NCBI RefSeq assembly: GCF_017352095.1
Contig: NZ_CP071463.1
Coordinates: 62,001-126,000 of the forward strand
Length of the DNA: 64,000 nucleotides
Reading direction: 5' to 3'
From: Natrinema longum
GTDB lineage: Archaea > Halobacteriota > Halobacteria > Halobacteriales > Natrialbaceae
A program made the position numbers and the translations under genes. Below, piece by piece: positions 16,447 through 62,816 of the stretch. The first letter of the stretch is position 1. Every line of letters starts with the position of its first letter. A model generated the notes under the pieces. The model saw nothing but the letters and a program-made list of their open reading frames with translations. It ran no database searches and was not told where the DNA came from.

Positions 16447-16502
16447 AGCGGGAACCGTCGCGATGGTTGATCATACGTCCACCACTATATGCAGATAGGA
16501 CA

Positions 16503-17591
16503 ATGACCCAAACTCAAATCAGTCGACGGCGGGCGATGCAGGCGATTGGGGCGACCGGCGCGCTGGCGGTTGCCGGCTGTCTCGGTGGAAGCGGAGCGGA
16601 GAACGACGCAGAACCAAACCAGTCGGCCGATGGGGAGGGACTACCGGAAGCGAAGGCGGTCGACGTCGACCGGATCGCACGGGATCCGACGGACATCCCC
16701 CCGCCGGTCGACTGGAACGAGCCCCGCGAGCACGACGTGACGGTCGAAACGGTCCGGCAGACGGCCGAGATCGAGCCCGGCGTCACGTTCGAGTACATGA
16801 CCTTCGAGGGGCAGGTGCCGGGGCCGATGATCCGCGTCCGGCGCGGTGACCGCGTGAACCTCACGTTCGACGTCCCGGAGGACCTGAACATGGCGGCTCA
16901 CAATATGGACTTCCACGCGGTCTATGGCCCCGGCGGCGGAGCCGAGGCGACCACGATCGCACCCGGCGACGACCCGGCCCGGATCAGCTTCACCGCCGAC
17001 TACGCCGGCGTGTTCATCTACCACTGTGCGATCCCGAACATGGATCAACACATCAGCTCGGGGATGTTCGGCTCGATCCTCGTCGAGCCCGAAGACGGCC
17101 TCCCCGAGGTCGATCACGAGTACTACCTCGGCCAACACGAGATCTACACCGACGGCGACGTCGGCGAAGCCGGCCACCACAGCTTCGACTTCGACGCCAT
17201 GCTCGAGGAGTCGCCGACCTACGTCGTCTTCAACGGCCAGGCCTACGGCTTCACCGAGGACGGCGTCGGGCCCATGACGGCCGAAACCGGCGACACCGCA
17301 CGCGTGTACTTCGCCAACGGCGGGCCCAACCTGCTGAGCTCGCTCCACCCCATCGGCAACGTCTGGAGCCGCTACTACCGCGACGGCGACCTCCTGAGCG
17401 AGCCCGACCAGAACATCGAGACCGCGCCCGTCGCCCCCGGGACGACCACGGCTGGCGAGATGGAGTTCCCCGTCCCCGGTCCCGTCAAAATCGTCGACCA
17501 CGCGCTGACGCGGGCCACTCGCCGCGGTGCCCTCGCCGTCATCGACGTCGACGGCGAGCCCACTCGAGACGTCTACGACGAGGATCCGTAA
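16503..17591 (+). CDS. nirK: Copper-containing nitrite reductase
   Basis: Reduces nitrite to nitric oxide on the outer face of the membrane, the defining step of denitrification. The 362-residue precursor has a Tat signal with RRR and a lipobox (VAGC, Cys26), so it is probably a lipoprotein. Two cupredoxin domains follow. Type-1 copper ligands are His133, Cys175, His183 and Met188. Type-2 ligands are His138, His174 and His282 (LHPIGN). The catalytic Asp is Asp136 in HNMDFHA. All ligands are present, so the enzyme should be active. It is followed by a blue-copper protein gene, its likely electron donor or a related carrier. Confidence 0.96.
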   Translation: MTQTQISRRRAMQAIGATGALAVAGCLGGSGAENDAEPNQSADGEGLPEAKAVDVDRIARDPTDIPPPVDWNEPREHDVTVETVRQTAEIEPGVTFEYMTFEGQVPGPMIRVRRGDRVNLTFDVPEDLNMAAHNMDFHAVYGPGGGAEATTIAPGDDPARISFTADYAGVFIYHCAIPNMDQHISSGMFGSILVEPEDGLPEVDHEYYLGQHEIYTDGDVGEAGHHSFDFDAMLEESPTYVVFNGQAYGFTEDGVGPMTAETGDTARVYFANGGPNLLSSLHPIGNVWSRYYRDGDLLSEPDQNIETAPVAPGTTTAGEMEFPVPGPVKIVDHALTRATRRGALAVIDVDGEPTRDVYDEDP

Positions 17592-17648: not shown

Positions 17649-18236
17649 ATGACGTTCGTTTCCCGTCGTACCGTGCTTCGATCGGCAGCCCTCGCGGTCG
17701 GCATCGGCCTCGCGGGCTGTCTCGAAGACGTCGCCGACCGCTCGAGCGACGGCGACGAGCAGCCGCCCGAGAACGCCGGCGAACCGGGGATCCCCGCCGA
17801 ACGGATCACCGTTACGGCGAATTCTCGACCCAACCCCAAATTCGAACCGCAGGTCGTCCACGTCGTCCCCGGTGGGACCGTCGAGTGGCTCGTCGAGACC
17901 GGTCGCCACGACGTCACCGCCTACCACGAGGACGGCCACGGCCCGCACCGAACACCCGAAGGCATCGAGTCCTGGGGGAGCGACCGGCTCAGCGGCGTCG
18001 GCGCGGCCTACGAGCGCCCCTTCGAGACCGAGGGCGTCTACGACTACGTCGACACCCAGCAGGTCTGTACCTCCCACGAGGTCGCCGGCAACGTCGGCCG
18101 TATCGTGGTCGGCTGGCCCGACCCCGACGACGAACCCGCGATGGTCGACCCCCAGCCCGAACTCCCGTCGCAAGCCGCGCGAGCGATCGAACTGTTCAAC
18201 GAGGAGACTCGGCCGATCCTCGAGGCCGGGCCGTGA
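17649..18236 (+). CDS. Halocyanin-like blue copper lipoprotein with altered axial ligand
   Basis: A 195-residue exported cupredoxin. The Tat/lipobox signal SRRTVLRSAALAVGIGLAGC ends at Cys24. Copper ligands His87 (GRHDV), Cys140 and His143 (CTSHE) are visible. The usual halocyanin pattern is C..HE..GMxG with Met five residues after the His; here that position is Asn148 (HEVAGNVG). Four or five extra residues also precede the Cys. It lies 57 bp after nirK on the same strand, so it probably belongs to that transcript and may carry electrons to NirK or to the heme-copper complex downstream. The Met loss could change redox potential or metal affinity. Confidence 0.85.
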   Translation: MTFVSRRTVLRSAALAVGIGLAGCLEDVADRSSDGDEQPPENAGEPGIPAERITVTANSRPNPKFEPQVVHVVPGGTVEWLVETGRHDVTAYHEDGHGPHRTPEGIESWGSDRLSGVGAAYERPFETEGVYDYVDTQQVCTSHEVAGNVGRIVVGWPDPDDEPAMVDPQPELPSQAARAIELFNEETRPILEAGP

Positions 18237-18497: not shown

Positions 18498-19253
18498 ATG
18501 ACCCCAACACCTACTCCAATCGACAGGCGAACGCTCCTGCGCGCGGCGGGCACGGCGGCGATCGGCGCATCCCTCGCGGGCTGTTCGCAACCGGGTCGGT
18601 CCAGCGACGCGGAGGACTCCCTCGTCCTCGATCCGCCGGAGAACCACGACCGGATCGCGAACGCGGACCTCCCGCACCCGATCTACGGGGAAGCGATTCC
18701 GGAGGCGACCGTCCCGGCCCCGCTGCACGACCGGACGGTCACGACCACGGAGTTCACCGGGAAGCGCCACCTGATGCTGACGTTCATCTACACGAGTTGT
18801 ACGACCGTCTGCCCCGGCCTGACCGCGGCCCTGCGGCGCGTCCAGGCCGACGCGATCGAGGAGGGGTACGCAGACGAGATCGCGTTCCTCCCGATCACCT
18901 TCGACCCCGAGCACGACACCGACGAGGTCCTCGAGACCTACGGCGAGGACCACGGGGTCGACTTCGACGCCGGCAACTGGTACTTCCTGCGACCGGAGAC
19001 GCCCGAGGACGCCGAGGCAGTCGTCGAAGATACGTTCGGCGTGGCGTTCGCACCGAGCAACGAGGGAGACGGCGACGGGATGAACGGGAGCGACGGGATG
19101 GACGACGGCGACGGCCACGCCCGCCACTTCGTCCACACGTCGTTGATCCTGATCGTGAACAAGGACGGCCTCGTCGAACGCTCCTATACGGGCGGCTCCC
19201 CCGGCGGGAACGAAATCGTCGAGAACGCCCGCACCGTCGTCGAGGGGTGGTGA
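18498..19253 (+). CDS. SCO1/SenC-family copper chaperone (lipoprotein)
   Basis: Thioredoxin-fold protein that delivers copper to, or reduces, the CuA centre of heme-copper enzymes. It has 251 residues: Tat/lipobox signal with DRRTLLRAAG and LAGC (Cys29), then the thioredoxin-like domain with the metal-binding CTTVC (Cys101, Cys105) and the third ligand His213 (FVHTSL). All three copper ligands are present. Residues about 190-205 hold an insert rich in Gly, Asp and Met. It is followed after 3 bp by the TlpA-like gene and lies behind a perfect CGAA-N4-TTCG box. The CuA acceptor is encoded at 20794. Confidence 0.93.
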   Translation: MTPTPTPIDRRTLLRAAGTAAIGASLAGCSQPGRSSDAEDSLVLDPPENHDRIANADLPHPIYGEAIPEATVPAPLHDRTVTTTEFTGKRHLMLTFIYTSCTTVCPGLTAALRRVQADAIEEGYADEIAFLPITFDPEHDTDEVLETYGEDHGVDFDAGNWYFLRPETPEDAEAVVEDTFGVAFAPSNEGDGDGMNGSDGMDDGDGHARHFVHTSLILIVNKDGLVERSYTGGSPGGNEIVENARTVVEGW

Positions 19254-19256
19254 TCC

Positions 19257-19787
19257 ATGCGCCGTCGAGAGGTCATCGTCGGTACCGCCGGCCTCGCTGC
19301 TCTCGGCGGCGGCGCGATCGCCGTCAGCGAGTGGAACCCTCGCGAGAGCGGCGCGGCCGTCGATTCGATCGAACTCGAGACGATCGACGCGCCGGGGAGC
19401 GAGGCCGGAACCGCGACGGTGCCCGAACGCGGTCGGGTGACGTTCGTCGAACTGTTCGCCACCTGGTGTTCCGTCTGTCAGGACATGATGGAACCGCTCG
19501 GCCAGGTCCACGACGACATCGACGCGGACGTACAGTTCGTCTCGGCGACCGGCGAGCCGATCGGGAACACCATCACCCGCGAGGACGTCGCGGACTGGTG
19601 GCGCGAGCACGACGGGACCTGGCCCGTCGCCCTCGACGCCGATCTCGAACTGACGGAAGCGCTCGACGCCTCGGGCGTCCCGTACGCGTTCGTCCTGGAC
19701 GCGGACAACGTCGTGACCTGGTCCGGTCGGGGGCGGAAGTCACCCGACGAGATCCGATCGGCCATCGACGACGCTGGAGGTGAGTGA
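19257..19787 (+). CDS. TlpA/ResA-like exported thioredoxin
   Basis: A 176-residue membrane-anchored or Tat-exported thiol-disulfide protein (MRRREVIVGTAGLAALGGGA at the N-terminus). The active site is FATWCSVCQDM with Cys71 and Cys74. The cis-Pro region is GVPYAFVLD. Such proteins keep the CuA cysteines of subunit II, or heme-binding cysteines, reduced. It sits between SCO1 and CcdA, the classic set for CuA assembly, and overlaps the ccdA-like gene by 8 bp. Confidence 0.9.
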   Translation: MRRREVIVGTAGLAALGGGAIAVSEWNPRESGAAVDSIELETIDAPGSEAGTATVPERGRVTFVELFATWCSVCQDMMEPLGQVHDDIDADVQFVSATGEPIGNTITREDVADWWREHDGTWPVALDADLELTEALDASGVPYAFVLDADNVVTWSGRGRKSPDEIRSAIDDAGGE

Positions 19788-20451
19788 CGTGGCGGGTGGC
19801 GAACTCCTCGGGACGATGGTGTTCGCCCTCGGCGTGGGCGTGGCGACGTTCTTCTCGCCGTGTGCGTACGCACTGTTGCCCGGCTACGTCGGGTACTACG
19901 TCGCTGCGACCGGCGAAGAGACGACGCCACCGCTCTCGGGGACCCTCGCACGCGGTCTCGCAGCGGCCGCTGGCGCGATGGCCGTCCTCGGCTCCCTGTC
20001 TCTCGCCGCAGTCGTCGCCGGCGAAACGGTCGGACGAGCGGTCCCACTACTCGAGTACGGTGTCGGCGTCGCGTTGATCGTGCTCGGCCTGTGGGTACTG
20101 TACGGCGGGAGCGGTGCCGTCCACGTGCTCCTGCCCGAGCGCCGATCGACCGTCCTGGGGTTCGGGCTCTTCGGCGCGATGTACGCCCTCGCGGCGACGG
20201 CCTGTGTCCTTCCGGTGTTCCTGGGACTGGCGTTTCGTTCGCTTCCCATGCCGCCACTCGAGACGGCGCTGGTGCTCGGAACGTACGCCGTCGGGTTCGG
20301 CACGCTCATGGTCGCGGTTACGGTCGCGACGGCGTTCGGGTACGCCCTCGGGGCCGGTCGCATCGCCAACTACGTCGACCGGGTGATCCGCGTCGCAGGG
20401 GTCGTACTGGTGATCGCCGGCGTCGGCCAACTCTACGTCGCCGCGGTCTAA
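19780..20451 (+). CDS. CcdA-like thiol-disulfide transporter
   Basis: A 223-residue polytopic membrane protein that passes electrons from cytoplasmic thioredoxin to the exported TlpA/SCO proteins. It has six predicted helices and the two conserved cysteines in FFSPCAYALLPGY (Cys28) and ATACVLPVF (about Cys142), both followed by Pro as in CcdA/DsbD-beta. Start: a GTG at 19780 overlaps the previous stop; a GTG three codons later is also possible. It completes the SCO-TlpA-CcdA unit. Because no c-type cytochrome is evident here, its role is more likely CuA assembly than heme attachment. Confidence 0.9.
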   Translation: MSDVAGGELLGTMVFALGVGVATFFSPCAYALLPGYVGYYVAATGEETTPPLSGTLARGLAAAAGAMAVLGSLSLAAVVAGETVGRAVPLLEYGVGVALIVLGLWVLYGGSGAVHVLLPERRSTVLGFGLFGAMYALAATACVLPVFLGLAFRSLPMPPLETALVLGTYAVGFGTLMVAVTVATAFGYALGAGRIANYVDRVIRVAGVVLVIAGVGQLYVAAV

Positions 20452-20639: not shown

Positions 20640-20789
20640 ATGCCTTCGTCACACACGCGTGAATCGGAACCGGTGATGCAACGACTCTACGATCGGATCT
20701 GGCTGCTCGCGGCAGCAGCGCTCGTGTTCTTCGCCGTCTCCTACGTCGCGTGGGGATGGGTAGACGTGTTCTCGGTTCCCATGGGGTGA
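20640..20789 (+). CDS. 49-residue single-helix subunit of the heme-copper complex
   Basis: A short frame (MPSSHTRESEPVMQRLYDRIW...) encodes one transmembrane helix, about residues 20-40, rich in Ala, Val, Phe and Trp. It ends four bases before the subunit II gene and has the same strand and codon use. Small single-helix subunits commonly accompany ba3-type complexes (for example the IIa subunit in Thermus and the small Cba subunit in Natronomonas), so I interpret it as such a subunit. The gene would often be missed because of its size. A TATA-like GGATATGC lies at about 20599-20606. Confidence 0.7.
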   Translation: MPSSHTRESEPVMQRLYDRIWLLAAAALVFFAVSYVAWGWVDVFSVPMG

Positions 20790-20793
20790 TTCG

Positions 20794-21333
20794 ATGACGT
20801 CACCAATCAAACCTCCGGACGGAAACTGGTGGAATCAACCGGTCAACAGACGGGAGTCGATCTGGCTGGGGCTCGGTGTCGGCTGGTCGCTCATCCTCTT
20901 CGGGTGGATGAGCGCCTGGACGCGCGTCGGGGATCAGAACCCGATCGGCGAGACGTTCCGGATCGAGGGCGACGAGTACCGGGAGAAGATGAGCGACTAC
21001 AAGGACCGGGCAACCGAGACCGACGACGGCCTCGTCCCGCCCGATCGAGACGTGTACCTGCAGGCGATGCGCTTCCAGTGGGACGGCGCACCGGTCGTGC
21101 TCGAGGCGGGAACGGAATACGACATCCACCTCAACTCCCTCGACGTCCAGCACGGCTTTTCCCTTCGCCCCGAGGAGGCGCTCAGCAAACAGATCAACCT
21201 GCAGGTGTTGCCGGGGTACGAGTGGGTCGTCCCCATGACCTTCGACGAACCTGGCACCTACCACATCATCTGTAACGAGTTCTGTGGACAGGGCCACAGG
21301 AGTATGCACGGCACGATCGTCGTGGAGGAGTGA
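20794..21333 (+). CDS. Heme-copper oxidoreductase subunit II (CuA)
   Basis: A 179-residue protein with one N-terminal membrane helix (about 23-42) and an exported cupredoxin domain carrying the binuclear CuA site: His120 (DVQHGFS), Cys160 and Cys164, His168 and Met171 in CNEFCGQGHRSMHG. It accepts electrons from a blue copper protein or cytochrome and passes them to subunit I. The short form with a single helix is typical of B-family (ba3) complexes. The conserved Cys pair is intact and the SCO/TlpA/CcdA genes just upstream are the expected assembly factors. Confidence 0.94.
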   Translation: MTSPIKPPDGNWWNQPVNRRESIWLGLGVGWSLILFGWMSAWTRVGDQNPIGETFRIEGDEYREKMSDYKDRATETDDGLVPPDRDVYLQAMRFQWDGAPVVLEAGTEYDIHLNSLDVQHGFSLRPEEALSKQINLQVLPGYEWVVPMTFDEPGTYHIICNEFCGQGHRSMHGTIVVEE

Positions 21334-21338
21334 TATCG

Positions 21339-23084
21339 ATGACACACAAACTCGACGTTCTCGGTCTGTTCGACAACGAGTATCGCGACGACGGCTTCCG
21401 GAGCTGTTCCGTTACGGGGCTCGAGGTCCACCGCACCGTCGACAACTACGTCAAACTGTTCGGCCTCACGGCGGTCATCGCCCTGCTGTTCGGCGGTATC
21501 TTCGCCTTTACCGTCGCGATGACCCGCTGGGAAGTGGTCGGACTGCTCGAGCCCGCCGACTTCTACACGCACCTCAGCATGCACGCGTGGAACCTGCTGA
21601 TCTTCTGGATGGTGTTCATGGAGATCGCCATCCTCTACGTCGGCGGCCCGATGGTGCTTGGCAGACGGCTCCCGATCACGATGGTCGCGAAGGCAGGATG
21701 GGCCGTCATGGTCGGGGGTGCCCTGCTGGTCAACTACGCCATCTGGACCACCGAACCACCCAACGAAGCACCGCTGTTGACCGCCTACGTCCCGATGCCC
21801 ATCTCACCGTTGTTCTACGCGGGTGCGATAATCTTCATCCTGGGCACCGTCGTCGCGGCGTTGCCCTTTTTCGTGACGATGTGGTACGAGAAGCGCGAGA
21901 ATCCGGGGACGACGCTCCCGCTCGTCAGCTTCGCCGCGTTCGTCACGTCGATCATCGCCGTCGAGGCGCTGGTCGGCGGTCTGTTCGCGTTCGTTCCCAC
22001 CCTGTTCTGGCGACTCGAGATGATCGAGTGGTGGGACGCGGCCTGGTACCGCCAGATGTACTGGATCATCGGCCACGGGACCCAGCAGATCAATCTGGTG
22101 GCGATGATCGCGGTCTGGTACTTCCTGACTCACGTCGTCGCCGGCGCGGAGGTCGTCAGCGAGAAGGTCTCGCGGACCGCGTTTATCCTCTACCTGTTCT
22201 TCATCAACCTCGGGGCGGCACACCACCTGCTGTCCGACCCCGCGGTGTCGACCGGCTGGCGGATCTGGAACACGTCCTACGCGTTCTACGGGGCGACGTT
22301 CGCGAGTCTGATCCACGCCTTCGCCATCCCGGCGGGGATCGAGGCCGGACGGCGCAAGCGGGGGAAAGGCGGCGGCCTATTCGGGTGGCTGACGTCCGCT
22401 CCCTGGTCGAACCCGGTGTTCTCCTCGACGATCTTCTCGATCATCCTCTTCGGATTCCTCGGGGGGATCACGGGCGTCATGATGGGACAGCTCCAGCTCA
22501 ACATGACCTGGCACAACACGTTCGCGACGGTCGGCCACTTCCACGCCACGGTCGTCCTCGGGACGACGGTCGCGTTCATGGGGCTGATCTTCTTCGTGAT
22601 CCGGACGATGTTCATGCGCCAGTACATCTCCCAGCGGCTCGCGTCGATTCAGCCGTTCTTCTACTCGGCTGCGATGGGCGTAGCGGTCCTGATGATGATG
22701 TACGTCGGCATCCTCTATGGGATTCCGCGCCGAACCGCGGAAGTCGTCGAGAACATTCCCGGGACGGAGTTCAGCCTCTCGGCCGCATCGCCGCTGTTCG
22801 CGGTCTTCGGAATCTTCGCCCTGCTCGCCATCGCGGGCGGCGTCCTGTTCGTCGTCGTGGCGGTCGGATCGCTGGTCTTTGGCGACCGCGTCGAGAACGG
22901 CGCGGAGAACGCGGATCTCGTCGCCGACGGCGGGCTCGGGATGGCGCAGGATCCGGACGATCCGGTCCACGCATACGAGATGCGCGGGACGTTCGTCCTC
23001 TGTCTGGTCTTCCTCGCGGCGTTCGTGATCACGTACCTGCTGAACTGGTATCTACTGACCCAACTCTGGTCGATCGGGGCCTGA
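21339..23084 (+). CDS. Heme-copper oxidoreductase subunit I lacking the catalytic Tyr (candidate NO reductase)
   Basis: A 581-residue integral membrane protein with 12 or more helices, B-family-like. Residues that I can place: low-spin heme His82 (helix II, SMHAWN), CuB His246 (helix VI), CuB His295/His296 (GAAHHLL), and heme ligands His400 and His402 in GHFH. In oxygen reductases of types A and B, helix VI reads HPxVY and the Tyr is crosslinked to the CuB His. Here the sequence is HGTQQ, so Pro is Gly and Tyr is Gln250. No Tyr sits in the helix VII position used by cbb3 enzymes either. Loss of this Tyr is a hallmark of NO reductases. A GTG at 21330 could extend the start by three codons. Confidence 0.88.
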   Translation: MTHKLDVLGLFDNEYRDDGFRSCSVTGLEVHRTVDNYVKLFGLTAVIALLFGGIFAFTVAMTRWEVVGLLEPADFYTHLSMHAWNLLIFWMVFMEIAILYVGGPMVLGRRLPITMVAKAGWAVMVGGALLVNYAIWTTEPPNEAPLLTAYVPMPISPLFYAGAIIFILGTVVAALPFFVTMWYEKRENPGTTLPLVSFAAFVTSIIAVEALVGGLFAFVPTLFWRLEMIEWWDAAWYRQMYWIIGHGTQQINLVAMIAVWYFLTHVVAGAEVVSEKVSRTAFILYLFFINLGAAHHLLSDPAVSTGWRIWNTSYAFYGATFASLIHAFAIPAGIEAGRRKRGKGGGLFGWLTSAPWSNPVFSSTIFSIILFGFLGGITGVMMGQLQLNMTWHNTFATVGHFHATVVLGTTVAFMGLIFFVIRTMFMRQYISQRLASIQPFFYSAAMGVAVLMMMYVGILYGIPRRTAEVVENIPGTEFSLSAASPLFAVFGIFALLAIAGGVLFVVVAVGSLVFGDRVENGAENADLVADGGLGMAQDPDDPVHAYEMRGTFVLCLVFLAAFVITYLLNWYLLTQLWSIGA

Positions 23085-23121
23085 TCGGCCGCCCGAACCG
23101 TTTCGATCGATTTCATCCACC

Positions 23122-23841
23122 ATGACACGTTCCGAATCCGACGCGACCGCATCGCCACTCCAGTTCCTCAGGCGCGCCATCGGCCAGGCCTGGCGGGACC
23201 TCTTGAGCGTCTACTACGCGAACACGCCGATCTGGCGGCTGTTCAAGAGCGCCGGGTTGCTCTTCTTTGGCTTCTTTTGCTGGTCGGCCTCGAGTCTCGT
23301 CCTCTCCTATGGAATCGAGTGGACGATCCTCGAGTACACGAGGGCCTACGGATTCGTTCTCATTCTCTGGGGGCCGTTGACCCACGCCGTGATCGTCCCG
23401 CTCGTGATCCGGCTTCGACGGACCGCCGAGCACCCAGTGGTGCGGGCGGTCGCCCGGAACGGCTCGAAGATCAACCTCTCCGTCTTTCTGGCCATCGTCC
23501 TGATCCTCGGGACGGTTCCCATCTCCCCCATGTTGCTCGACTTTCAGTCGCCCCTCGAGAGCGCTTCGGGCTCGGACGTCAATCCCGATCTCTCCTGTAC
23601 CCGGTCGGATGGGATCGTCTCCTGTTCGCTCTCCGAGTCCGAGGGGATCGACAGCGTCGTGGTGACCAGCGGCAACCGCGAGATCGAACGCGTCGAGGAG
23701 CCACCCCTCGAGTTCACGTTCCGTGAGGACGACCTCGAGGAGGTGGTCGGCCAGAAGGAATTCGTCGTCGAACTCCGCGACGAGGACGGCGAGACGCTCC
23801 GCCGATACCGGCGATCCGTCTCGTCAGTCCCCGAGGCGTGA
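23122..23841 (+). CDS. Membrane protein downstream of the heme-copper complex (possible accessory subunit)
   Basis: A 239-residue protein with three hydrophobic segments (about 45-65, 75-95, 118-140) and a C-terminal acidic domain of about 95 residues that is probably extracytoplasmic. That domain contains a Cys pair (LSCTRSDGIVSCSLS) that could form a disulfide and looks beta-rich. I do not recognise the family. It starts 37 bp after subunit I on the same strand and has matching codon use. In Natronomonas a small membrane subunit follows ba3 subunit I, so a subunit or assembly role is plausible. Confidence 0.65.
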   Translation: MTRSESDATASPLQFLRRAIGQAWRDLLSVYYANTPIWRLFKSAGLLFFGFFCWSASSLVLSYGIEWTILEYTRAYGFVLILWGPLTHAVIVPLVIRLRRTAEHPVVRAVARNGSKINLSVFLAIVLILGTVPISPMLLDFQSPLESASGSDVNPDLSCTRSDGIVSCSLSESEGIDSVVVTSGNREIERVEEPPLEFTFREDDLEEVVGQKEFVVELRDEDGETLRRYRRSVSSVPEA

Positions 23842-24837: not shown

Positions 24838-27324
24838 CTATCGATCGTCCTCGAGTATCGACCGCGAGGAGTTGACGACGACGATGGCGCTACTCGTTGC
24901 CATCGCAACGGCCGCGAAAAGCGGGTTAATCAGTCCCACCGCGGCCAGCGGAATCGCGACGGCGTTGTACAGCAGCGCCCAGCAGACGTTCTCGCGGATC
25001 CGCCGCCGGGTCGCACTCGCGAGGTCGAACACCGACCGAACGTCCCGGAGGTCACTCGAGGTGACGACCGCGTCGGCGGCGTCGGTCGCACGGGCCGTCC
25101 CGTTGCCGAGCGCGATTCCGACGTCCGCCGCGGCCAGCGCCGGGGCGTCGTTCGTCCCGTCGCCGACCATCGCCGTCACTCCCTCGCGGGAGAGTCGTCG
25201 GACCGTCTCGACCTTCCCGTCGGGTGGGACGCCCGCGAAGACCCGGTCGACCGCGGGGTGGTCGCGAACGGTCGCCGTCGCGGACTCGTCGTCGCCCGTC
25301 AGCACGACCACCGTTCGGTCGGTAAACGACTCGAGGACCGGCTGCCAGGCCGCTCGCGTTCGATCGCCGACGACGGCGACCGCTCTCGCTCGCCCGCCGT
25401 AGCCGATGACCGTCGCGAGCCGTCCCGTCTCTCGTGCGTCGTCGATCGCCGCCTCGAGTTCGGCCGGGATCGGACCGACCAGCCGCTCGACCAGCGCCGG
25501 CGTTCCGACGACGACCCGCCCGTCGTCGTCCGGTTCGGGACCGGGCAGAGTCGTTCCATCGACCCGCGCGCTGACGCCCTCGCCGGGGTGGCGCTCGAAG
25601 TCGGTGACCGGGAGTGTGCGCTCGTCGGCTGAATCGTCGCCGGCAGCGAGGGACTCGAGGCTCCCGCCGTCGGGAGCGACGCCTGGGCCGCCCGTCCCGT
25701 CGGCTGTCTGCCCCCCTCGCTGGGCGTCACCGGCGGCCACGATGGCGTCGGCGACGGGGTGTTCCGACCGTCGCTCGACGGCCGCGGCGGGGCCGATCGC
25801 ATCCGTCTCTCCGTGGATCTCGAGCACCGTCATCTCGCCGGTCGTCAACGTACCGGTCTTGTCGAAGACGACGGTCTCGACGGCCGGAGCCGACTCGAAC
25901 AGGGTCGCGTTCGCGACGACGATCCCGCGCTCCAAGGCGTCACGGAGCCCGGAGGCGACCGCCAGCGGGGTCGCAAGCCCCATCGCGCAGGGACAGGAGA
26001 CGACGAGTACCGTCAGCCCCGTGAGCACCGCCTCCCCGACCGCGGTTCCCGTCGCGAGCCGCCAGGCCGTCACGCCGACCGCGAGGGTCAACACGAGGGG
26101 GACGAAGACCGTCGCGAGCCTGTCTGCCAGCCGCTGGACCCCCGGCGTCGAACTCTGGATTTCCCACATGAGCGTCGCGATGCGATCGAGCGTGCTCTCG
26201 GCGTCCTCGCCGACCTCGAGGACGAGCGCGCTGTCGGTCACGATCGTGCCGCCGACGACGCGCTCCCCCGGTCGCTTCGTGACCGGGAGCGACTCGCCGG
26301 TGAGGAGGGATTCGTCGACGGCCGCCGTCCCCTCGAGGACCGTCCCGTCGACGGGAATCCGCTCGCCGGGTTTGACGAGGAGTTCGTCACCCGCCGCGAG
26401 CCGATCGACGGGAACCGTCTCGGTCCCGTCGGCGGTTCGACGGGTCGCGTCGCGGACCCGCGTGGCGGTCACGTCCGCGAGCAAGTCGGTCGCCCGACGC
26501 TTGATCCGCCGCTCGTAGTAGCTCCCGAGCGTGACGACCATGATCACCGCGACGGTCACGTCGTAGTAGAGGTGCGTGCTCCCCATGAGCAGCGCGACCG
26601 TGCTGTAGGCGTACGCCGAGACGGCCGCGATCGCGATCAGCAGATCCATGTTCGGCTGCCGGACCCGCAGGCTGACGTACGCGCCGCGCAAGACGGGATG
26701 CCCGGTGTAGAACAACACGCCGCCGGTCAACAGCCCGATCATCGTGAGCGGGAGGTAGGTCCCCACGGGCGAGGTCGCGTCGACCGAGAGGATGCCCGTC
26801 TCGATCCCCACGTAGCTCGGATAGAGGTAGAACAGGTACCACGGCATGACGAGCATCGCCAGGAACCCGCCGACGAGCAGCCGCTGGACGAGTTCCTCGT
26901 CGGCTCGATGGTCCCCCTCGTCGTCACGAAATCGCGCCTCGTAGCCGTAGCCCGAAAGCGTCTCGGGGAGGTCGCCCTCCTCCAGCAGCTCGGGATCGTA
27001 GACGACGCGGGCGGTGTCGGTCGCGTAGCTCGCCTCGACCGCCAGAATCCCCCGTTCGCGCTCGCCCAGCAGGGAGACGAACCCCTCGCAGGTCGAACAG
27101 TGCATGCCGTCGATCGCGAGGAACGTCTCCGCGGCCTCGTCGGGAACCGTCCGCTCGCCGGTTCCCTCCGCCCGGTCGACGACGCGGTCCCGGTCGACGT
27201 CCGCGACCGTCTCCAACGTCTCGCTCACCTCGAGACAGCCCTGACAGCAGAACTGCCCCTCGACGTCTCCCGCCGTCACCGGTGGCTCCGGCGTTGGGAG
27301 GCCACACAGCGAGCACGAACTCAT
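24838..27324 (-). CDS. Cu+-translocating P-type ATPase, CopA2/FixI type
   Basis: An 828-residue P1B ATPase. The N-terminus has the Cys-rich domain of CcoI/FixI-type pumps (CSLCG at 4-8; CCQGC at 26-30), then a heavy-metal-associated domain with GMHCSTC (Cys76, Cys79). Later motifs are TGES, the SCPCAMGL transport site (about 445), DKTGT (about 486), SEHPVAD and GDGTNDAP (about 722). Last come YN and MATSSA in the final helices, as in Cu+ pumps. The nucleotide domain has a Gly/Asp-rich insert of about 45 residues. Such pumps supply copper to secreted or membrane cuproenzymes, fitting NirK and the CuA/CuB complex nearby. ATG 27324 fits the family start better than upstream codons. Confidence 0.94.
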
Positions 27325-27411
27325 CTCGTGGTCGATACTCGCGGACGCCGGGTAGCCGTGGTGCCGAATACGTTCGTCCGCTCGCTCACCGTACGCCCCC
27401 GGTCGTCGCAC

Positions 27412-61982: not shown

Positions 61983-62816
61983 ATGACTCGGAGCGACTGG
62001 GGCGACTGGCTCGTCCGCGACGTCGAAGAAACGGATCCGGAGGGCGTCTCGATCTGGTATCTCGGCTGTAACGGCTTCATCCTGAAGGGGACTGGCGGAA
62101 CGACGATCTATATCGATCCGTACGTCGGCCTCGGCGACCCGCCGCGAACGGTCCGCATGATCCCCGTCCCGTTCGATCCGGACGATGTCGAGGAAGCCGA
62201 CGCCGTCCTCGTGACCCACGAACACACTGACCACGTCCACGGGCCGAGCCAGGCACCGATCCTCGCGAACACCGGCGCAACGCTGTACGCGCCCGACGAC
62301 AGCGTCGCGGTCGCCCGCGAGGAGGAGGCGTGGACCGACGAGTGGGCGGTCACCGACGACCAGTTGACCGAAGTCACCGAAGGCGACACGATCGAGGTCG
62401 GCGAGTTTACGATCCACGTCGAGCAAGCGTCCGATCCCGACGCGACCCATCCCGTAAGCTACGTCTTCGAACACGAGGCAGGGACGTTCTTCCACGGCGG
62501 CGACACGAAGCCGTGCGAGGAGTTCGAGCGAATCGGCGACGAGTACGCGATCGACCTCGCGGCACTCGCCTTCGGAACCGTCGGACAGATCCTCGACAAA
62601 CGGACCCGCGAGCCGAAACGGACCCGCTGGTACAACGACGAGAACCAGCTCATCGAGTGCGCCGCTGCCCTCGAGTGTGAACGACTCCTGCCCAGCCACT
62701 GGGATATGTGGAAAGGGCTAACCGCCGATCCGACGGCGCTCCATCACCACGCACAGAGTTTCGAGTATCCACAGCGCCTCGAGATCGTCGAGATCGGGGA
62801 TCGAACCGACCTGTAA
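61983..62816 (+). CDS. MBL-fold metallo-hydrolase (UlaG-like)
   Basis: A 277-residue metallo-beta-lactamase-fold hydrolase. The metal motif HxHxDH is THEHTDHVHG (about 79-88). The further ligands are probably His in DPDATHPVSYVFE, Asp in FHGGDTKP and His in LLPSHWDMWKG. The order and the short TVGQILDKR insertion resemble UlaG/L-ascorbate-6-phosphate lactonase-type proteins. Substrate unknown; sugar-lactone or phosphate-ester hydrolysis are possible. Starts MTRSDWGDWLVRDVEE; no signal peptide. Confidence 0.87.
   Translation: MTRSDWGDWLVRDVEETDPEGVSIWYLGCNGFILKGTGGTTIYIDPYVGLGDPPRTVRMIPVPFDPDDVEEADAVLVTHEHTDHVHGPSQAPILANTGATLYAPDDSVAVAREEEAWTDEWAVTDDQLTEVTEGDTIEVGEFTIHVEQASDPDATHPVSYVFEHEAGTFFHGGDTKPCEEFERIGDEYAIDLAALAFGTVGQILDKRTREPKRTRWYNDENQLIECAAALECERLLPSHWDMWKGLTADPTALHHHAQSFEYPQRLEIVEIGDRTDL

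Follow-up and report, generated by a model that had tools for sequence, protein, structure and literature searches.

The heme-copper complex encoded beside nirK in Natrinema longum is, on the evidence of its sequence, a member of the known eNOR family of NO reductases and not a new type of enzyme. The explanation that best fits the data, and that is very probably correct, is that it acts downstream of NirK and would reduce NO to N2O by means of CuA and a heme-CuB site devoid of the crosslinked Tyr. The window analysed here comprises 64,000 nucleotides (positions 62,001 to 126,000 of NZ_CP071463.1, from a genome of 3.59 Mb), and the features of the locus are listed in Table 1. Scanning with models of promoters and terminators yielded nothing useful, as expected for bacterial-type models applied to an archaeal host.

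Table 1. Features of the eNOR locus, in window positions; roles are predictions
Feature	Position	Strand	Evidence	Predicted role or remark
nirK, copper nitrite reductase	16467..17591	+	TIGR02376, 360.4 bits (cut-off 296.3)	Tat/lipobox-like N-terminus (SRRRAMQ...AGC start), from direct reading
Small blue copper protein (halocyanin/plastocyanin-like lipoprotein)	17649..18236	+	PF00127, E 9.5e-5; halocyanin model score below its cut-off	May donate electrons to NirK, CuA or both
SCO1/SenC family protein	18498..19253	+	PF02630, E 3e-14; CxxxC = CTTVC	Putative role in CuA assembly
TlpA/ResA-like thiol-disulfide protein	19257..19787	+	PF08534, E 1.4e-11; CxxC = CSVC	
CcdA/DsbD-like multi-helix membrane protein	19780..20451	+	Name assigned from its reading and context; no match in Pfam	Gene kept beside eNOR in related loci
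49-aa single-helix protein	20640..20789	+	MQRLYDRIWLL...WGWxDVFSVP	Conserved small component
eNOR subunit II, CuA cupredoxin	20794..21333	+	PF00116	
eNOR subunit I, heme-copper catalytic subunit	21330..23084 (GTG) or 21339..23084 (ATG, 581 aa)	+	PF00115, 171 bits	Residues numbered from the ATG at 21339
ORF3, uncharacterised membrane protein	23122..23841	+	Adjoins eNOR in 37 of 38 eNOR genomes	
Copper-type P-type ATPase with HMA domain	24838..27411	-	TIGR01511, 420 bits (cut-off 397)	Likely copper supply; neighbour of eNOR in most named haloarchaeal loci

The sequence-only reading had proposed that subunit I retains the heme and CuB ligands of the heme-copper superfamily and has lost the catalytic Tyr, and both proposals were borne out. 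His82, 246, 295, 296, 400 and 402 are all present and align with His72, 233, 282, 283, 384 and 386, respectively, of the Thermus thermophilus ba3 oxidase. The helix VI motif does read HGTQQ, and Gln250 occupies the position of ba3 Tyr237, so that the CuB-crosslinked Tyr of the B-family oxygen reductases is absent. Nor is there a Tyr at the helix VII position used by cbb3-type enzymes, which lies six residues ahead of the His-His pair; Ile289/Asn290 are found there, as had been stated. The complex cannot therefore be placed among the C-family (cbb3) oxygen reductases, which would require a Tyr where Ile289 stands.

To determine how widely these features are conserved, subunit I was aligned with T. 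thermophilus ba3 and related proteins. The Gln249-Gln250 pair was invariant in 77 of 77 eNOR-type rows, although these include several near-duplicate Natrinema sequences from two collections and are not 77 independent observations. Identity to the window protein was 60-100% for 73 of the rows and 38-42% for those from Thermus, Thermomicrobium and Defluviimonas; these deepest members also retain Gln-Gln. (With the N. ejinorense protein, identity was 99%.) Because of this invariance, HGTQQ cannot be put down to a chance substitution or a sequencing error. His82, 246, 295, 296 and 400 were likewise invariant in the 77 rows, and His402 was present in 75, the other two, from Thermus, having Lys. 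The residues Glu95, Asn252, Asn311, His326, Tyr285 and Tyr314 are invariant across the eNOR-type rows and differ in ba3. Tyr285, Tyr314 and Tyr317, all invariant or nearly so, correspond to Phe, Leu and Phe of ba3, and could reach the active site. A single proton channel is predicted for eNOR. Tyr244, Tyr248, Ser309 and Thr312 are the ba3 residues to compare for the K-type proton path; two of these positions are kept in the Natrinema protein (Tyr261 and Ser323, for Tyr248 and Ser309), while Ile257 replaces Tyr244 and His326 replaces Thr312. Two eNOR-type proteins encoded on T. thermophilus plasmids (L081 and L084) contain the motif GHFK, in which Lys stands in place of the helix X low-spin-heme His, as an unusual possible heme ligand.

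The presence of a CuA subunit, also claimed in the sequence-only reading, is equally apparent. The gene for subunit II, a cupredoxin, lies directly upstream of that for subunit I, and its product has a complete set of CuA ligands (His120 and C160-x-E162-x-C164-x3-H168-x2-M171). These were retained in all 16 aligned subunit II rows, with the Glu position conserved in over 90%.

A maximum-likelihood tree was constructed in order to place subunit I relative to the oxygen reductases. All of the Gln-bearing sequences (28 rows) formed one clade, with support of 100/99, apart from the Tyr-bearing B family (99/99), which included both T. thermophilus ba3 and the organism's own ba3-like oxidase. Subunit I thus falls outside the Tyr-bearing oxygen reductases and does not cluster within them, in a tree that was built without verified bNOR, sNOR, gNOR, nNOR or cbb3 sequences and in which the Natronomonas, Rhodothermus and Thermus rows represent genera named for eNOR, not accession-matched reference proteins. 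The five plasmid matches retrieved as candidate references (L085-L089) all have the Tyr motif, and in L090 there is no usable motif. Identity to subunit I is 69-70% for the Natronomonas rows and 64% for those of Rhodothermus, the genus from which (as R. marinus) the characterised eNOR reportedly came.

The residue at the Tyr position is considered diagnostic of the various families: it is Y in the oxygen reductases, E in cNOR and qNOR, N in sNOR and CuANOR, D in gNOR and Q in eNOR (PMC8756737, Table A4). By this criterion Gln250 excludes membership of the cNOR/qNOR (Glu), sNOR (Asn) and gNOR (Asp) families. Gln at this site is the eNOR hallmark, and HG[T/S/A]QQ with Gln is the family's signature (PMC8756737), which settles the question, previously left open, of which NOR family shares the HGTQQ motif. 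The Natrinema complex also resembles eNOR in its full set of heme and CuB His residues, its upstream cupredoxin CuA subunit II and its association with nirK; an eNOR-nirK operon has been published for Ardenticatena (PMC4653789), and eNOR is listed among the biochemically characterised NORs (PMC11388526). The novelty implied by the sequence-only reading was not sustained, as eNOR had been reported in Natronomonas, with a cluster extending throughout the Halobacteria (PMC8756737); it is this earlier publication, together with the Gln hallmark, that makes the Natrinema enzyme a member of a known family. No eNOR structure was found among the PDB sequence matches. In NCBIfam there was no model naming eNOR, the best match, to a model for cytochrome c oxidase, falling well short of the cut-off of that model, and annotation pipelines therefore probably label the enzyme an oxidase.

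It was of interest to determine whether the proximity of nirK, which ends 3.05 kb before position 20640 and scores above the TIGR02376 cut-off, in agreement with the distance of 3 kb given previously, reflects a general association. To this end, 121 Natrialbaceae genomes were scored for eNOR, for nirK (over the curated cut-off) and for intact qNOR; presence of a gene in this sample depends on the search thresholds and on draft assemblies. eNOR was found in 38 of the 121 genomes, always together with nirK, compared with 28 nirK-bearing genomes among the 83 without eNOR (Fisher 8.7e-14). When the genomes were stratified by genus, so that much of the shared ancestry is taken out, the exact probability was 1.8e-8. 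In 22 of the 38 genomes nirK was situated within 10 kb of eNOR. Ten nirK genomes (e.g. G004, G019 and G027) were observed with neither eNOR nor intact qNOR; these may have another NO sink, or may truly release NO.

Intact qNOR accompanied eNOR in 25 of the 38 genomes, and the remaining 13, all with nirK, had eNOR without it. Surveys based on qNOR would therefore mis-score these 13 as NO-releasing dead ends, and such species make the function of eNOR directly testable. qNOR (NorZ) has been called the only NOR in haloarchaea (PMC8400030, PMC8301774). The eNOR counts contradict that statement at the gene level, and reviews naming qNOR as the only class there overlook eNOR. The N. longum genome itself has, outside the window, one intact qNOR (G000:C1:1768745-1771060) and a second nirK (G000:C1:2654331-2655263), and one nosZ lies on the same chromosome at about 2139800. 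With an intact qNOR present, eNOR is not the organism's sole NOR, nor is a second NOR strictly required. The two enzymes found together in this genome would catalyse the same reaction; qNOR differs in being a single chain of approximately 770 aa with Glu in the site and no CuA, and is 25% identical over the aligned part.

This redundancy bears on a variant of the preferred explanation, compatible with it, in which eNOR serves mainly in detoxification or under microoxic conditions and qNOR carries out respiratory NO reduction. Such a division of labour is possible but somewhat doubtful: it is consistent with the 25 genomes having both enzymes and with a published statement that NO reduction by eNOR takes place in microoxic conditions (PMC11388526), whereas the 13 genomes in which nirK and eNOR occur in the absence of an intact qNOR, and the operon-like arrangement of eNOR with nirK and genes for CuA assembly, argue against it.

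A different reading is that the complex belongs to the B-family oxygen reductases as a divergent member that works without the crosslinked Tyr, its proximity to nirK being incidental. The organism is aerobic, the best Foldseek matches are ba3 structures (24% identical, VIA alignments), with which the complex shares its fold, CuA subunit and His ligands, the K-channel is partly kept (Tyr261, Ser323), and Tyr285/314/317 are candidates for an active-site Tyr. Against these points stand the replacement of the Tyr in 77 of 77 rows and the separate clade, the strong co-occurrence and linkage with nirK, and the fact that the genome already contains three A-family oxidases and one Tyr-bearing B-family oxidase, and this reading is accordingly regarded as improbable. 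The crosslinked Tyr of oxygen reductases gives an electron and a proton for O-O cleavage. Since Gln250 replaces it, four-electron reduction of O2 should be poor. Ordinary ba3-type oxidases do also reduce some NO (PMC8780969), and residual O2 reduction by the Natrinema eNOR is for that reason possible.

The sequence-only reading had suggested a CuA-type NO reductase, and a CuA-bearing NOR is indeed the best description of the complex; that it belongs to the CuANOR/bNOR family of Bacillus is barely credible, because that family, which is likewise published as a CuA-bearing NOR of B-family descent and so shares the CuA-bearing subunit II and the ancestry seen here, carries Asn where the Natrinema protein has Gln (PMC8756737, Table A4).

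The Natrinema eNOR, then, almost certainly converts NO to N2O. From the observed gene content, residues, phylogeny and linkage we infer the reaction, the source of its electrons, the route of its protons and the parts played by the accessory proteins as follows. NO would be produced by NirK outside the membrane. Electrons from the small blue copper protein would enter at the CuA of subunit II and pass by way of the low-spin heme (His82/His402) to the heme-CuB centre (heme His400; CuB His246, 295 and 296), where two NO would be reduced to N2O. Protons would probably be drawn from the cytoplasm through a modified K-type channel, with Tyr261 and Ser323 kept and His326 in place of Thr312. Copper loading would be performed by the Sco, TlpA-like and CcdA-like proteins together with the Cu-ATPase. 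Both ORF3 and the 49-aa protein probably serve either as accessory subunits or as factors for assembly.

The 49-aa protein and ORF3 merit separate consideration. Position 20640, at which the sequence-only reading began the complex, is the start of the conserved 49-aa single-helix ORF. Nearly all loci, among them those of Thermus, Thermomicrobium and Defluviimonas, have a similar small ORF just 5' of subunit II, and its product is probably a small subunit. A profile search detected ORF3 in 37 genomes of the 38 that have eNOR and in 0 of the 83 that do not (Fisher 2e-30); the exception is G068, in which the contig breaks off within the eNOR gene (L078). Where eNOR is present twice in a genome, so is ORF3. 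Of 41 copies, 38 have the two genes 73-350 bp apart, and the other three have them 1.1 kb apart. In Rhodothermota and Bacteroidota, too, eNOR is followed by ORF3, with 35-41% identity, but no ORF3 was found beside the eNOR genes of Thermus, Thermomicrobium, Defluviimonas and the uncultured bacterium L056.

ORF3 has three predicted membrane helices and an Ig/FN3-like domain, with Cys159 and Cys168 invariant, and its predicted structure (pLDDT 84.5, pTM 0.50) consists of the helices followed by a beta-sandwich. Fold searches returned generic Ig/FN3 domains only (best Z 8.4), and no fitting Pfam or NCBIfam family was found. ORF3 thus seems to be undescribed and is possibly the new element of this locus; it provides an easy marker for eNOR as well as a new protein for study. 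The available descriptions of eNOR, as a two-subunit enzyme, mention neither ORF3 nor the 49-aa protein, and compared with them the Natrinema copy has, in addition, the dedicated ORF3 and a Cu-assembly cassette. Their obligate linkage to eNOR suggests that both proteins are either subunits or factors dedicated to assembly. There is perhaps an even chance that the eNOR of haloarchaea and Rhodothermota is a larger complex than its two subunits, with these two proteins as constant and hitherto undescribed components, whether subunits or factors dedicated to its assembly, and that together with nirK and the copper-loading cassette it forms an NO-producing and NO-consuming module, which may have moved between archaea and Rhodothermota.

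The eNOR proteins of Rhodothermota and Bacteroidota (L033, L036-L038, L049 and L050) are 64-67% identical to the archaeal one, and the NirK of R. marinus lies inside the archaeal NirK cluster (PMC4770552). These two observations fit a joint transfer of nirK and eNOR between the domains. In Thermus, the eNOR-type genes (L081, 6001-9052) are followed by genes for an Rrf2 regulator and a DUF542 protein, with a multicopper oxidase gene upstream, in what looks like an NO-response neighbourhood.
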